Shown piece after piece: positions 25,923-29,483 of a stretch of DNA of 64,000 nucleotides. Under the pieces are notes generated by a model. That model saw nothing but the letters and a program-made list of their open reading frames with translations, did no database searches and was not told the origin of the DNA. The translations under genes were made by a program, and so were the position numbers. This stretch comes from Candidatus Schekmanbacteria bacterium (lineage in GTDB: Bacteria > Schekmanbacteria > GWA2-38-11 > J061), in contig JACRJM010000002.1 of the NCBI GenBank assembly GCA_016219965.1, positions 174,233-238,232 of the forward strand, in the 5' to 3' direction. How positions within the stretch are numbered: the stretch's first letter is position 1; each line of letters opens with the position of its first letter.

Positions 25923-25930
25923 ACGACTTC
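25923..25930. repeat. Target-site duplication, left copy
   Basis: ACGACTTC abuts the left end of the IS1-family element; an identical copy abuts the right end at 29476-29483. Eight-to-nine-bp duplications are usual for IS1. Confidence 0.9.
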
Positions 25931-25950
25931 GGTAGTGGGTCAGTTTGAAA
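25931..25950 (+). repeat. Left terminal inverted repeat of IS1-family element
   Basis: 20 bp, perfect complement of 29456-29475; begins GGTAGTGGGTC. Confidence 0.95.
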
Positions 25951-25955
25951 AATAA

Positions 25956-26900
25956 TTAAAGAGAAACTTCTGTTGAATTTTCTTTTAGTTTATCAAATAA
26001 ATTATTAAAAGAATCATATAAAGATAAATTATCTTTATTATCTTCTGTAACCTTATCTATTTTGTAAACAGGTGATTCATGTCCATGCCTATCAATTTCA
26101 TAGGTACTCATAAATAAACATTTATCCAATATAATTAATCTAAAAATAGGATGAAATTTACAATAATATAATTGAACAGTTCTATCAGAACGTATTTTAT
26201 TTAATGTTTTAAATTTATCTATAGTATTACAAATTTCTTTTTTAAGATCCTCTTTAGTATAAGGTGGTAGTATTTTTCTAAGTTGATGTATTCTTTCATT
26301 AATCACTTCATCATTGTCTGGATTCAAAATAACACTCTCAACTTTTATCCAATTTCGCTCTCTTAAAACATCATAGAAAAGCGATTCTCCTTCTCCTTTC
26401 CCTATATATTCATAACCAGCAATTGATAAAAGTTTAATTGTTTCAGAATGAGATAATTCTTCCATTACATCTCTTGAATACTGCTGATTGATGGCAGCAA
26501 CTCTTAATCTATCTTCATAGATTTTTTTAATTCCCGATTGTTTATTTAACAATTTAACCAACTGTATAATTTTATCAGCTTCTGATGTTTTTAATATACC
26601 AAGATAAGATTGTATATAAAAGTGTAGGCTAAGATTAGAAGCGAATGAAAACAAAAAAGCTATTATAAATTTTACAACAAATGAAAACGTTAGTGAACTT
26701 ACAGAAATTGAAAACCTAAAAGGAACAGAGAGAGTTATTGTTCTTAATAAAGTTTCTCTCTCTGACTCTACAAGGAGACAGAGCCATATTATTATTGTCC
26801 ATATAAAAATATCAAATCTTCGTGGTGATTTTAAAAATTTGGATGGTAAATTATAGAATGTCTCTATTAATCCTTGTGTGCGGGAGGGGTTTGATTCCAA
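25956..26900 (-). CDS. Passenger membrane protein, possible DUF5919/PLD-like domain
   Basis: A 314-residue protein with two hydrophobic segments (about 30-46 and 72-98), then a cytoplasmic region of about 200 residues. The stretch VESVILNPDNDEV, the later VQLYYCKFHPIFRLIILD and STYEIDRHGHESPV resemble the DUF5919 / catalytically reduced phospholipase-D-like fold found in some regulatory and conflict proteins. I see no HKD catalytic motif. The start is unclear: TTG at 26900 follows an in-frame stop by two codons and has no ribosome site. It lies 27 nt after a 55-residue membrane peptide gene, so the two form an operon. Base composition is more AT-rich than the host genes. Function unknown. Confidence 0.6.
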   Translation of the reverse strand: MESNPSRTQGLIETFYNLPSKFLKSPRRFDIFIWTIIIWLCLLVESERETLLRTITLSVPFRFSISVSSLTFSFVVKFIIAFLFSFASNLSLHFYIQSYLGILKTSEADKIIQLVKLLNKQSGIKKIYEDRLRVAAINQQYSRDVMEELSHSETIKLLSIAGYEYIGKGEGESLFYDVLRERNWIKVESVILNPDNDEVINERIHQLRKILPPYTKEDLKKEICNTIDKFKTLNKIRSDRTVQLYYCKFHPIFRLIILDKCLFMSTYEIDRHGHESPVYKIDKVTEDNKDNLSLYDSFNNLFDKLKENSTEVSL

Positions 26901-26927
26901 GATTCAGATTGAATTATTTATCTTGAA

Positions 26928-27095
26928 TTATTCAAGAGATTTGTTTATTTTTTCAATATCAATTACTTCTGATGGAGAATTTTTTGCAAAAATTTTAGAA
27001 GATATTTTTTGCTCTAATTTATTTATAGCAGATGATGGAAAAGTAAAAATTCCAATTATTATCGCTAATATTGAAATAATAGATACCAAGTCCAT
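26928..27095 (-). CDS. Small single-pass membrane protein (55 aa)
   Basis: MDLVSIISILAIIIGIFTF forms one transmembrane helix, followed by a charged tail of about 30 residues. The ATG at 27095 is supported by AAGGGGAG five nucleotides upstream, and a promoter lies at 27125-27153. It is the first gene of the passenger operon ahead of the 314-residue membrane protein. Not recognised; a partner subunit or antitoxin-like regulator of the larger protein is possible. Confidence 0.6.
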   Translation of the reverse strand: MDLVSIISILAIIIGIFTFPSSAINKLEQKISSKIFAKNSPSEVIDIEKINKSLE

Positions 27096-27124
27096 AGTTC
27101 TCCCCTTTGTTATTATTTGAGTAA

Positions 27125-27153
27125 ATGATACAAACATGAACCTGCTTCGTCAA
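27125..27153 (-). promoter_or_regulatory. Promoter of the passenger membrane-protein operon
   Basis: TTGACG (27148-27153), 17-nt spacer, TATCAT (27125-27130), read on the minus strand, 29 bp before the 55-residue gene. It lacks the ATGCTTG motif found in the element's three other promoters. Confidence 0.55.
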
Positions 27154-27215
27154 GAATTATTTAATTCTATATACTATTTTCACATATTAGAGGGATTAAC
27201 TATGTTATTTATTGA

Positions 27216-28043
27216 TTATTGTAAATTTAATATTTCTTCTATTTCCCATACATGGTCTGTTATTCCTGCTTCCATTGCTGGAGTTACTCTTAACGTCTGA
27301 TGAATCCTACAGAAATTATAATACATGAAATGAAGCGATACTGCATGAATAAGGTTCTCTGCCTTTTTTGAAAAGGCATTTGTAAGCCTTGTAAATCTTC
27401 TCATACTCATACGCATTGTTAAATTTTGGCGTTCAACGAAGCTTGTCGAGGTGTGGTTCAGGTCTGGATTGCCTTGTATCTTCATTTTAATACTTCCGGT
27501 GCATTGAGCAGGACTATATTTCCTCTCTCCTTCTCTGTCGCCTTCATTGCCATATAGTTTTATAAGCTGGCTATAATCTATCTGATAGCCGAAGGCACTT
27601 TCTACAGCTTCAAGATATGCTCTGTGTCCGTCTGTTGTTAGCTGAACTCTATTCTTTAGCCTACCTGCCAAATCTTCCATGAACTCGGTTGCTGTTTCTA
27701 TGTCACGCCTTCCTATTCTCCAACTTGGAACAAGCTTTGTATCAGCGCAAATAGCTGTAAATGTCCACATATTGCCATAGCCGAATTGATCCTTTTTATC
27801 TTCCGGCACGTTCTTTTCTTTCGCATAACAGAAAGACCAGATTTCATCACATTGAATTTTCTTACAGGTAAGATTTACAAATGCCTTGTCTTGATATTCA
27901 GAGCAAGCTTTCCCAACATCAGCCAAGAGCTTCAATACTGTTCCTTTAGCCGCTCCTGTCATTCTGCAAGTGGCTCTGATTGAGTTACCTTCAACCAGTG
28001 CGCTTATTATCTGAACTTGTTTTTGAAGAGTTAATTTATTCAT
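27216..28043 (-). CDS. IS1-family transposase (single ORF)
   Basis: DDE transposase of 275 residues. An N-terminal helix-turn-helix (about 5-45) is followed by the catalytic core: Asp66 in IQCDEIWSF, Asp138 in TTDGHRAY and Glu204 in SFVERQNLTMRM. The C-terminal HFMYYNFCRIHQTLRVTPA block is diagnostic of this IS1 branch. Classical IS1 makes its transposase by frameshifting between InsA and InsB; here one continuous frame encodes it and the zinc finger of InsA is missing. The ATG lies six nucleotides after the predicted -10 box, implying a leaderless mRNA. No damage is seen, so the enzyme may be active. Confidence 0.94.
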   Translation of the reverse strand: MNKLTLQKQVQIISALVEGNSIRATCRMTGAAKGTVLKLLADVGKACSEYQDKAFVNLTCKKIQCDEIWSFCYAKEKNVPEDKKDQFGYGNMWTFTAICADTKLVPSWRIGRRDIETATEFMEDLAGRLKNRVQLTTDGHRAYLEAVESAFGYQIDYSQLIKLYGNEGDREGERKYSPAQCTGSIKMKIQGNPDLNHTSTSFVERQNLTMRMSMRRFTRLTNAFSKKAENLIHAVSLHFMYYNFCRIHQTLRVTPAMEAGITDHVWEIEEILNLQ

Positions 28044-28049
28044 ATATAC

Positions 28050-28078
28050 AATATACTTGACCGCTCAAGCATTGTCAA
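28050..28078 (-). promoter_or_regulatory. Transposase promoter carrying ATGCTTG motif
   Basis: TTGACA (28073-28078), 17-nt spacer starting ATGCTTG, TATATT (28050-28055) on the minus strand. The start codon follows after six nucleotides. Confidence 0.7.
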
Positions 28079-28088
28079 GTGTTTTTCT

Positions 28089-28170
28089 GCAAGCATTAAA
28101 ATAATAATTGACAATATATGCTTGCAAATATTATAATGCAAGCATAATCTTAACTTTGAGGTGCAAGCAT
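28089..28170 (+). promoter_or_regulatory. P63C gene promoter with four GCAAGCAT boxes
   Basis: TTGACA (28108-28113), 18-nt spacer, TATAAT (28132-28137). The octamer GCAAGCAT occurs at 28089-28096, inverted at 28118-28125 inside the spacer, at 28138-28145 touching the -10 box and at 28163-28170 over the start codon. A fifth, weaker copy is at 28065-28072. This layout fits repression of both divergent promoters by one protein. Confidence 0.7.
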
Positions 28171-29161
28171 GAATGACAAAGATAGTGGAAAAGCAAAAGG
28201 TGGATATGCACGGGCAGCAACCTTAACTCCTGAAGCACGCAAAGAAATTGCAAAGAGAGCTGCTGCTACTCGGTGGGATATTGGAGATAAAGAAAATCCA
28301 ATAGCTATTAATGAAGGTGAACTACCATTTGGAGATATTACTCTTGACTGCTATGTCTTAAAAGATAGGCGACGACTATTTCATAAAAAAGCATTAGCAA
28401 AAGGCTTAGGCATGAAATCTGAAGGTGGCAATGTTTTTCTTAGAACTTTCAATAGTAAAGGACTGGGATCAGTAATCCCACAAGAAACACGCCAAAAACT
28501 TGATAATCCTATTGTTTTCAAGACGTTACGTGGTGATCTCGCACATGGATATGAAGCTTTAACACTTATCGAGGTATGTGATGCAATTTTTGAAGCAAAA
28601 AAACTTGGTATATTAAAACCAAATCAATATTTTTTAGCTATGCAAGCTGAAATAATAATAAGATCGTCTGCTAAAATTGGCATTATTGCCCTTGTCGATG
28701 AAGCAACAGGTTATATAAAAGATAAGAAAAAAGAAGAATACAGAGAGCTTTTCAAAGAATTTATACGGCAAGAATGTAGAGAATGGGAAAAAGAATTTCC
28801 AGATCAATTTTTTGATGTTCTTTATATGTTATATAATTTGCGGCGACTCTATAAAAATAAACATCCGCAGTTTTTTTCTAAATTTATAAGGAAATACGTT
28901 TATACGCCTCTTGCCAATAGTAATGGTGCTATCCTTGAAATGTTAGACGAAAAAAATCCTGTTATTTATAAAAGTGGAGGAAGAAAATACAAATTATTTC
29001 AATTTTTAACTGATCAGGTTGGGATTCCTGCATTCAGGGCACATCTTTGGCAAATTATTGGTATAGCAAATGCAACAAAAACAAAAAAAGCATTCGATAA
29101 AGGATTTTCGCAAGCATTTCCGCAGTCAGGAGAACAATTACCTTTATTTGATTTAGATTAA
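28169..29161 (+). CDS. P63C-domain protein, passenger of IS1-family element
   Basis: A 330-residue cytoplasmic protein. The N-terminal segment GGYARAATLTPEARKEIAKR resembles the motif of the small convergent gene at 29158-29409. The central part (about 65-240), with RRLFHKKALAKGLGM, IALVDEATGYI and EFPDQFFDVLYML, matches the P63C domain (Pfam), known from phage and chromosomal proteins of undefined role. GAGGTG lies six nucleotides before the ATG. Its stop codon overlaps that of the convergent small gene. The operator boxes over its promoter suggest it is kept off or self-controlled. Confidence 0.8.
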   Translation: MNDKDSGKAKGGYARAATLTPEARKEIAKRAAATRWDIGDKENPIAINEGELPFGDITLDCYVLKDRRRLFHKKALAKGLGMKSEGGNVFLRTFNSKGLGSVIPQETRQKLDNPIVFKTLRGDLAHGYEALTLIEVCDAIFEAKKLGILKPNQYFLAMQAEIIIRSSAKIGIIALVDEATGYIKDKKKEEYRELFKEFIRQECREWEKEFPDQFFDVLYMLYNLRRLYKNKHPQFFSKFIRKYVYTPLANSNGAILEMLDEKNPVIYKSGGRKYKLFQFLTDQVGIPAFRAHLWQIIGIANATKTKKAFDKGFSQAFPQSGEQLPLFDLD

Positions 29162-29409
29162 GGATTCTTATTTTTTAGATTTGTCCATCGTGCTTTAGCC
29201 GCTTTTTGTGCTATCTCTTTTCTTTTTTTTGCAGATAGTTTCTCAGCACGTGCTTTGCCGCCTTTTAATCCACCAAGACGACCGAGAGCGACAGCAGCAG
29301 GATTTTTTGCAGGAATTACCGGAGCGGATTCTTTCTTTTCTTCTGTTGTTTGATCAACTATATTCTTTGCCAGAGCATTTATATCTTGAGGTTGTTTTTG
29401 TTTCTTCAT
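29158..29409 (-). CDS. Small basic protein with KGG...EIA..AA.ARW motif
   Basis: An 83-residue Lys/Ala-rich protein. ATG at 29409 is chosen over a TTG at 29445 because the predicted promoter would overlap the longer form. The C-terminal block LGRLGGLKGGKARAEKLSAK plus EIAQKAAKARW is shared, in pattern, with the first 30 residues of the P63C protein. Such helix-rich basic motifs probably bind nucleic acid; that is inference. The ATG is seven nucleotides after the -10 box, so translation should be leaderless. It may be the regulator that binds the GCAAGCAT boxes. Confidence 0.7.
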   Translation of the reverse strand: MKKQKQPQDINALAKNIVDQTTEEKKESAPVIPAKNPAAVALGRLGGLKGGKARAEKLSAKKRKEIAQKAAKARWTNLKNKNP

Positions 29410-29416
29410 GCTTATC

Positions 29417-29445
29417 AATATAGCATGAGCGGACAAGCATTTCAA
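29417..29445 (-). promoter_or_regulatory. Promoter of the small KGG/RW gene with ATGCTTG motif
   Basis: TTGAAA (29440-29445), 17-nt spacer beginning TGCTTG, TATATT (29417-29422) on the minus strand. A second box-like AAGCAT overlaps the start codon. Confidence 0.65.
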
Positions 29446-29455
29446 GGGGAGAGAA

Positions 29456-29475
29456 TTTCAAACTGACCCACTACC
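29456..29475 (-). repeat. Right terminal inverted repeat of IS1-family element
   Basis: Perfect 20-bp complement of the left end at 25931-25950. Confidence 0.95.
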
Positions 29476-29483
29476 ACGACTTC
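29476..29483. repeat. Target-site duplication, right copy
   Basis: ACGACTTC, identical to 25923-25930. Confidence 0.9.

Follow-up and report, generated by a model that had tools for sequence, protein, structure and literature searches.

A widespread IS1-clade transposon family with exchanged cargo and a conserved small KGG gene proposed to encode an autorepressor

The window analysed here, a 64,000-nucleotide stretch of a Candidatus Schekmanbacteria contig (JACRJM010000002.1), contains an element bounded by 20-bp inverted repeats (GGTAGTGGGTCAGTTTGAAA) which are complementary at 20 of 20 positions, just as an earlier note on this DNA had described. The kgg-distal repeat lies at 25931–25950 on the plus strand and the kgg-proximal one at 29456–29475 on the minus strand, and they are flanked by an exact 8-bp target site duplication, ACGACTTC, with its left copy at 25923–25930 and its right copy at 29476–29483 (no strand assigned to either), which also agrees with the note. 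From the kgg-distal end inward, the minus strand carries genes for a predicted membrane protein of 314 aa without family assignment (25956–26900) and for a small single-TM-like protein of 69 aa (26928–27137), together a putative operon, followed by the transposase gene tnp (27216–28043, minus strand, 275 aa). Beyond these lie a plus-strand gene for a P63C-domain protein of 330 aa (28169–29161) and the minus-strand gene kgg (29158–29409), which encodes a small KGG/RW protein of 83 aa and whose most probable start is the ATG at 29409 rather than the mechanical TTG at 29445. Within the 3.58-Mb host genome, perfect copies of the ends occur only at this element, the next best having 2 mismatches; no second element copy, solo end or second transposase was found, and the only further KGG sequence is the N-terminus of the P63C protein. 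A composite transposon was ruled out, as there is a single transposase and a single pair of ends with no flanking IS copies. To judge from its sequence, this is an intact IS1-clade transposon.

The best model for the transposase, which the earlier note had called a single-frame IS1-type enzyme, is that of IS1 (NF033558), although its 56.5 bits remain below the cutoff of 100 and PF03400 reached 23.3 bits (cutoff 24.1). Membership in IS1595 was rejected, with only 23.3 bits for NF033547 (cutoff 75); relatives of the protein are named “IS1 family transposase” by NCBI. Since the transposase is one 275-aa frame and not the classical InsA + InsB’ frameshift arrangement, we refer to the element as IS1-clade rather than classical IS1. 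Single-ORF subgroups exist within the IS1 family, whose members have GGnnnTG ends and 8–9-bp duplications, and the element family described below has GGTAGTG ends with duplications of that size. Residues D66, D138, and E204, invariant in A1, are candidate catalytic residues. With IS ends and a transposase enclosing cargo that is moved as a unit, the arrangement is that of a transporter IS (tIS).

Four relatives of the transposase on plasmids (54–62% identity) all lie inside units whose ends are of the same type, and three of these units have an exact 8-bp duplication. A search for the ends and transposase elsewhere, which the earlier note had suggested, covered genome contigs and viral contigs by transposase alignment, and viral contigs also by end sequence alone. 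It yielded 132 loci, corresponding to 120 distinct elements, each with both inverted repeats and a duplication (111 exact 8-bp, 5 exact 9-bp, and 4 imperfect), and with the common end consensus GGTAGTGnnTCAGTTTGAAA. Because the same ends and 8–9-bp duplications bound 120 elements, the repeats in the window are not there by chance, a possibility that the note had raised. By record titles, hosts include Nitrospira, Acidobacteria, Planctomycetes, Omnitrophota, Zixibacteria, Verrucomicrobia, Armatimonadetes, Bacteroidota, Patescibacteria, and several proteobacterial classes. The 113 transposase-bearing elements have a median length of 3061 bp, only one being shorter than 1.3 kb (776 bp, with a transposase remnant), and all but two or three of them carry cargo. 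The element is thus not an ordinary IS1 that happened to acquire genes, as carrying cargo is normal for the clade.

Evidence for movement as a unit comes from a member on a M. loti plasmid (L003), for which an uninterrupted homologous site exists in a Mesorhizobium huakuii plasmid, the joined flanks being covered by one 798-bp match at 97.5%. This empty site reads CGCTGGTA and the L003 duplication reads CGCTGGTG, and given that the two differ, the M. huakuii site represents a diverged relative rather than the exact parental site. Together with the ends and duplications, it supports the view that family members move as a unit, including the earlier claim that the whole unit in the window moved in one piece. 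Its perfect ends would also be compatible with the recent move put forward in the note, although the element is present as a single copy. Six elements (L019, L031, L040, L072, L089, and L115) have both ends and a duplication without a transposase, five of the six retaining KGG, and are probably non-autonomous relatives mobilised in trans. Overall, these elements form a widespread transposon family that is apparently undescribed. ISfinder lists an ISMhu11 subgroup of IS1, with elements of up to ~4.6 kb, that may include them; no paper on ISMhu11 was found in the searchable literature.

The earlier note had counted four passenger genes, including the small KGG/RW gene. A KGG profile matches 116 of the 120 elements, a few weakly or in degenerate form, and in 102 elements it begins no more than 400 bp from an end and is oriented inward; the usual location is 50–100 bp inside one end. 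As the profile was built from these same elements, two independent entries were tried. When starting from end DNA only, 49 of 120 ends had KGG on their inner side and none (0) had it outside. When starting from KGG genes in viral contigs, an inverted repeat was located within 700 bp upstream in 47 of 79 cases, compared to 0 of 63 control stretches, and 40 of these 47 repeats sit at 66–100 bp. Across 147 Mesorhizobium genomes, KGG was detected in 46, including all 21 with a full-length transposase, and 27 of 29 KGG loci have the inverted repeat. Distances between kgg genes and between tnp genes are correlated (Mantel r 0.34, the highest of 999 permutations reaching 0.17), while cargo, unlike kgg, does not follow tnp divergence, and two cargo-free members (L218, 1323 bp, and L094, 1365 bp) contain little beyond ends, kgg, and tnp. 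More distant IS1-family transposases on plasmids (22–30% identity) have no KGG, and no inverted repeat pair with duplication, nearby; kgg therefore marks this clade, and ends plus kgg provide a simple signature for annotating these elements.

These patterns bear on whether the element is an ordinary transporter IS whose four extra genes, KGG included, are all unimportant to transposition. Transporter ISs with passenger genes are known (PMC3129680, PMC9330008), and the P63C and membrane genes do behave as variable cargo, yet KGG occupies a fixed place, persists where cargo is absent, and diverges together with tnp as the cargo does not, so that we find this explanation very improbable. The passenger reading is largely refuted for KGG and stands for the P63C gene and the two membrane genes, and the comparison places the small KGG gene in the transposon core.

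Among the observations that count against a core repressor are that ~40% of viral-contig KGG genes have no recognisable inverted repeat nearby and that L253, L264, and L273 lack a KGG profile match. Near their opposite end, these three elements encode another small GGKAR protein (cluster c12) with a CPHC zinc-finger-like start, possibly a substitute regulator. Separately, the genome of L149 has a KGG-type domain (L459, a 150-bp match) inside a 426-aa frame that is not close to any transposon end. The KGG protein itself is small, basic, and helical, with three helices in an AlphaFold model (pLDDT 87, pTM 0.42). No match was found among solved structures (PDB), either by sequence or by fold, hence the fold itself is no argument for DNA binding. 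Small KGG/RW proteins had no match in Pfam or NCBIfam, and are sometimes labelled “histone H1”, as in CP050295.

Cargo is exchanged even between closely related elements, as L144/L152, L054/L266, and L028/L233 differ in cargo despite 84–94% identical transposases, a turnover that suggests selection for useful modules. We scanned 147 cargo proteins against Pfam, PADLOC, and NCBIfam. Pfam matches comprised HTH_3 (23), IrrE/M78 peptidase (18), P63C (8), SDH protease (5), NYN (5), SocA/Panacea (3), Mrr (3), and PIN (2), along with DNA methylases and AAA_21/AAA_15. PADLOC matches, at a generous E-value of 1e-3 for which HTH models cross-match, included RmrA (17), PD-Lambda-2_B (16), and capP (13) among others, and NCBIfam added HigA (15), SocA (3), and PtuA (3). 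Representative cases are a PD-Lambda-2_B match (E 3e-43) beside a HigB-like toxin, RmrA (8e-49), and HEC-04 (2e-52). In up to 20 elements, clusters c5-c1-c2 encode a HigB-like toxin, an Xre-type PD-Lambda-2_B match, and a third small gene, in agreement with the published three-gene order of PD-lambda-2 (PMC9519451). Judging by these raw family counts, the cargo of the family appears rich in toxin–antitoxin and defence-type genes. Proteins of another cluster, c9 (5 elements, ~330 aa), resemble an Ntn-hydrolase or proteasome-like protein, and at L145:2263-6109 the c9 gene adjoins one for a 943-aa protein. The cargo of the window element had no significant PADLOC match and is accordingly not called a defence system. 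Its 314-aa membrane protein has no relatives in viral contigs and a single weak match on plasmids (20% identity), and any role of the membrane and P63C genes for the element or its host would be putative.

Within elements, the upstream regions of kgg and tnp were found to share a palindrome, ATGCTTGASCGSTCAAGCAT. Allowing up to 4 mismatches, it occurs 100 times in 355 kb of elements versus once in 1106 kb of flanks, with ~1 site expected from shuffles. Its half-sites, TGCTTG/CAAGCA, reach 9.4 per kb upstream of tnp and 3.2 upstream of kgg, compared to 0.71 elsewhere in elements, and at least one is present in 76% of tnp upstream regions (8% expected). Sigma70-like pairs overlap 39 of the 100 operator sites, when 12 would be expected. 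Counting against the autorepressor reading, the kgg-side operator is less general: by strict half-sites, roughly one element in three has it, and it is absent from the tested Mesorhizobium kgg upstream regions, where kgg is set back from the end by a few hundred bp. In the window, a predicted operator with 19 of 20 matches (28053–28072) exactly fills the 17-bp spacer of the predicted tnp promoter (28050–28078, minus strand; TTGACA-ATGCTTGAGCGGTCAAG-TATATT) and is the only site with up to 3 mismatches in the whole genome. A second one, with 16 of 20 matches (29421–29440), exactly fills the 17-bp spacer of the predicted kgg promoter just inside the inverted repeat (29417–29445, minus strand; TTGAAA-TGCTTGTCCGCTCATGC-TATATT). 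In both predicted promoters, this −35/−10 spacer is the classical position for a repressor. The tnp start codon is only ~7 nt past the predicted −10 box (28041–28078), and tnp may be leaderless or have its true start further downstream.

A cluster of the same half-sites (28089–28170, plus strand) lies upstream of, and overlaps, the start of the P63C gene. The note's identification of this gene is borne out by a PF10546 match (63.3 bits), and the protein further matches phrog_2384 over residues 1–326 (342.7 bits), with a KGG/RW domain at its N-terminus. Such an N-terminal domain is frequent in P63C proteins, and half-sites also cluster upstream of P63C genes that lie outside these transposons on phage, viral, and plasmid sequences; in the phage loci L289–L368 and L497–L576, the clusters go with the domain. 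In a set of 119 non-redundant loci from viral contigs, P63C genes carrying the KGG domain had 2.03 half-sites per 206 bp upstream (0.15 in control windows) and at least two in 59 of 94 cases, whereas those without it had 0.11 and at least two in 0 of 19 (Fisher p 1e-7 for the two fractions, inflated by relatedness among the sequences). As this control lies within one gene family, the difference is not accounted for by the type of gene or by phage context. Most simply, the KGG/RW domain would recognise TGCTTG, and small KGG proteins and P63C proteins would each regulate their own promoter. A fold search with a P63C model returned no PDB match, and no described function for P63C was found in searchable papers.

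The same data speak to the alternative that the operator is bound by the N-terminal helix-turn-helix of the transposase, in an autorepression with KGG doing something else. The operator is indeed most consistent at the tnp promoter, but half-sites also precede P63C genes with the KGG domain in phages that have no transposase, P63C genes lacking the domain have no such clusters, and the transposase-less elements L031 and L072 retain operator sites. We thus consider a transposase-bound operator very unlikely.

Instead, we think it probable that KGG is a new DNA-binding autorepressor of IS1-clade transporter ISs in which a fixed chassis, ordered IR–kgg–(cargo)–tnp–(cargo)–IR, is combined with exchanged cargo. 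A DDE transposase would cut at the GGTAGTG ends and insert the element with an 8-bp, sometimes 9-bp, duplication, and the ends and empty site show that it moves everything between the ends. KGG would bind ATGCTTGASCGSTCAAGCAT at the tnp promoter and, for many members, also at the kgg promoter. It would thereby repress tnp, along with its own gene in members that have the operator there, a role resembling that of InsA played by an unrelated protein. Cargo divergent from tnp may also be quieted by the operator. Cargo modules, largely toxin–antitoxin and anti-phage, are exchanged between chassis and presumably pay for maintenance of the element.

Small accessory proteins exist in other transposons, and KGG could likewise be a transposition co-factor, involved in end-binding, target choice, or strand exchange, and not mainly a repressor. 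That it is strictly conserved along with tnp and keeps a fixed position beside one of the ends would fit such a role, which nonetheless seems unlikely to us in view of a palindrome that occupies promoter spacers rather than the inverted repeats, and of the KGG domain in phage P63C proteins, whose genes have half-sites without inverted repeats. Alternatively, a small, basic, helical protein labelled as histone H1 in CP050295 could be a nucleoid-like silencer or an antitoxin that keeps cargo harmless, and 23 of 49 tnp-side operator sites are also near a cargo start. However, KGG is kept where there is no cargo and its putative sites are sequence-specific, making this role highly improbable in our view. 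Beyond the autorepressor of these transposons, a broader proposal, to which we give somewhat less than an even chance, is that KGG/RW proteins constitute a new class of sequence-specific DNA-binding regulators (half-site TGCTTG), obligate as core repressors in transposons and shared with P63C genes of phages and prophages, and that near-identical operators could let transposons and phages regulate each other.

Taken together, these analyses describe an IS1-clade family, found in many phyla, in which cargo, often toxin–antitoxin or anti-phage, is the rule and not the exception, so that defence genes have in it a concrete means of travelling as ~3-kb units. They also provide a first directly testable function, via the operator, for small KGG/RW proteins and the N-terminus of phage P63C proteins, two sequence families to which the sources searched assigned none. 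Because the transporter-IS concept is already known, the novelty lies in the clade-wide core gene kgg, the operator, and the function proposed for the KGG domain.

Compared with known systems, the family shares with IS1 a transposase best matched by NF033558, the GGnnnTG ends and 8–9-bp duplications, and a small protein made near one end that could play the repressor role of InsA. It differs from classical IS1 in its single-frame transposase scoring below the IS1 cutoff, a kgg product that is no recognisable InsA, its cargo, a length of ~3 kb, and the operator palindrome. It was for the IS1595 family that transporter ISs were originally reported (Siguier 2009, as cited in PMC3129680), and like them these elements have one transposase, IS-type ends, and passenger genes inside. 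Unlike those of IS1595, they belong to the IS1 clade (56.5 vs 23.3 bits), carry cargo as a rule, and include a conserved non-transposase core gene and an operator. Tn3-family transposons are described as carrying toxin–antitoxin passengers in PMC7157771, and such modules are frequent cargo here too, although the transposase class differs and no resolvase is among the listed cargo families. Finally, the c5-c1-c2 clusters of up to 20 elements share the gene set of PD-lambda-2 (PMC9519451), which is absent from the window element and, in this family, mobile as transposon cargo.
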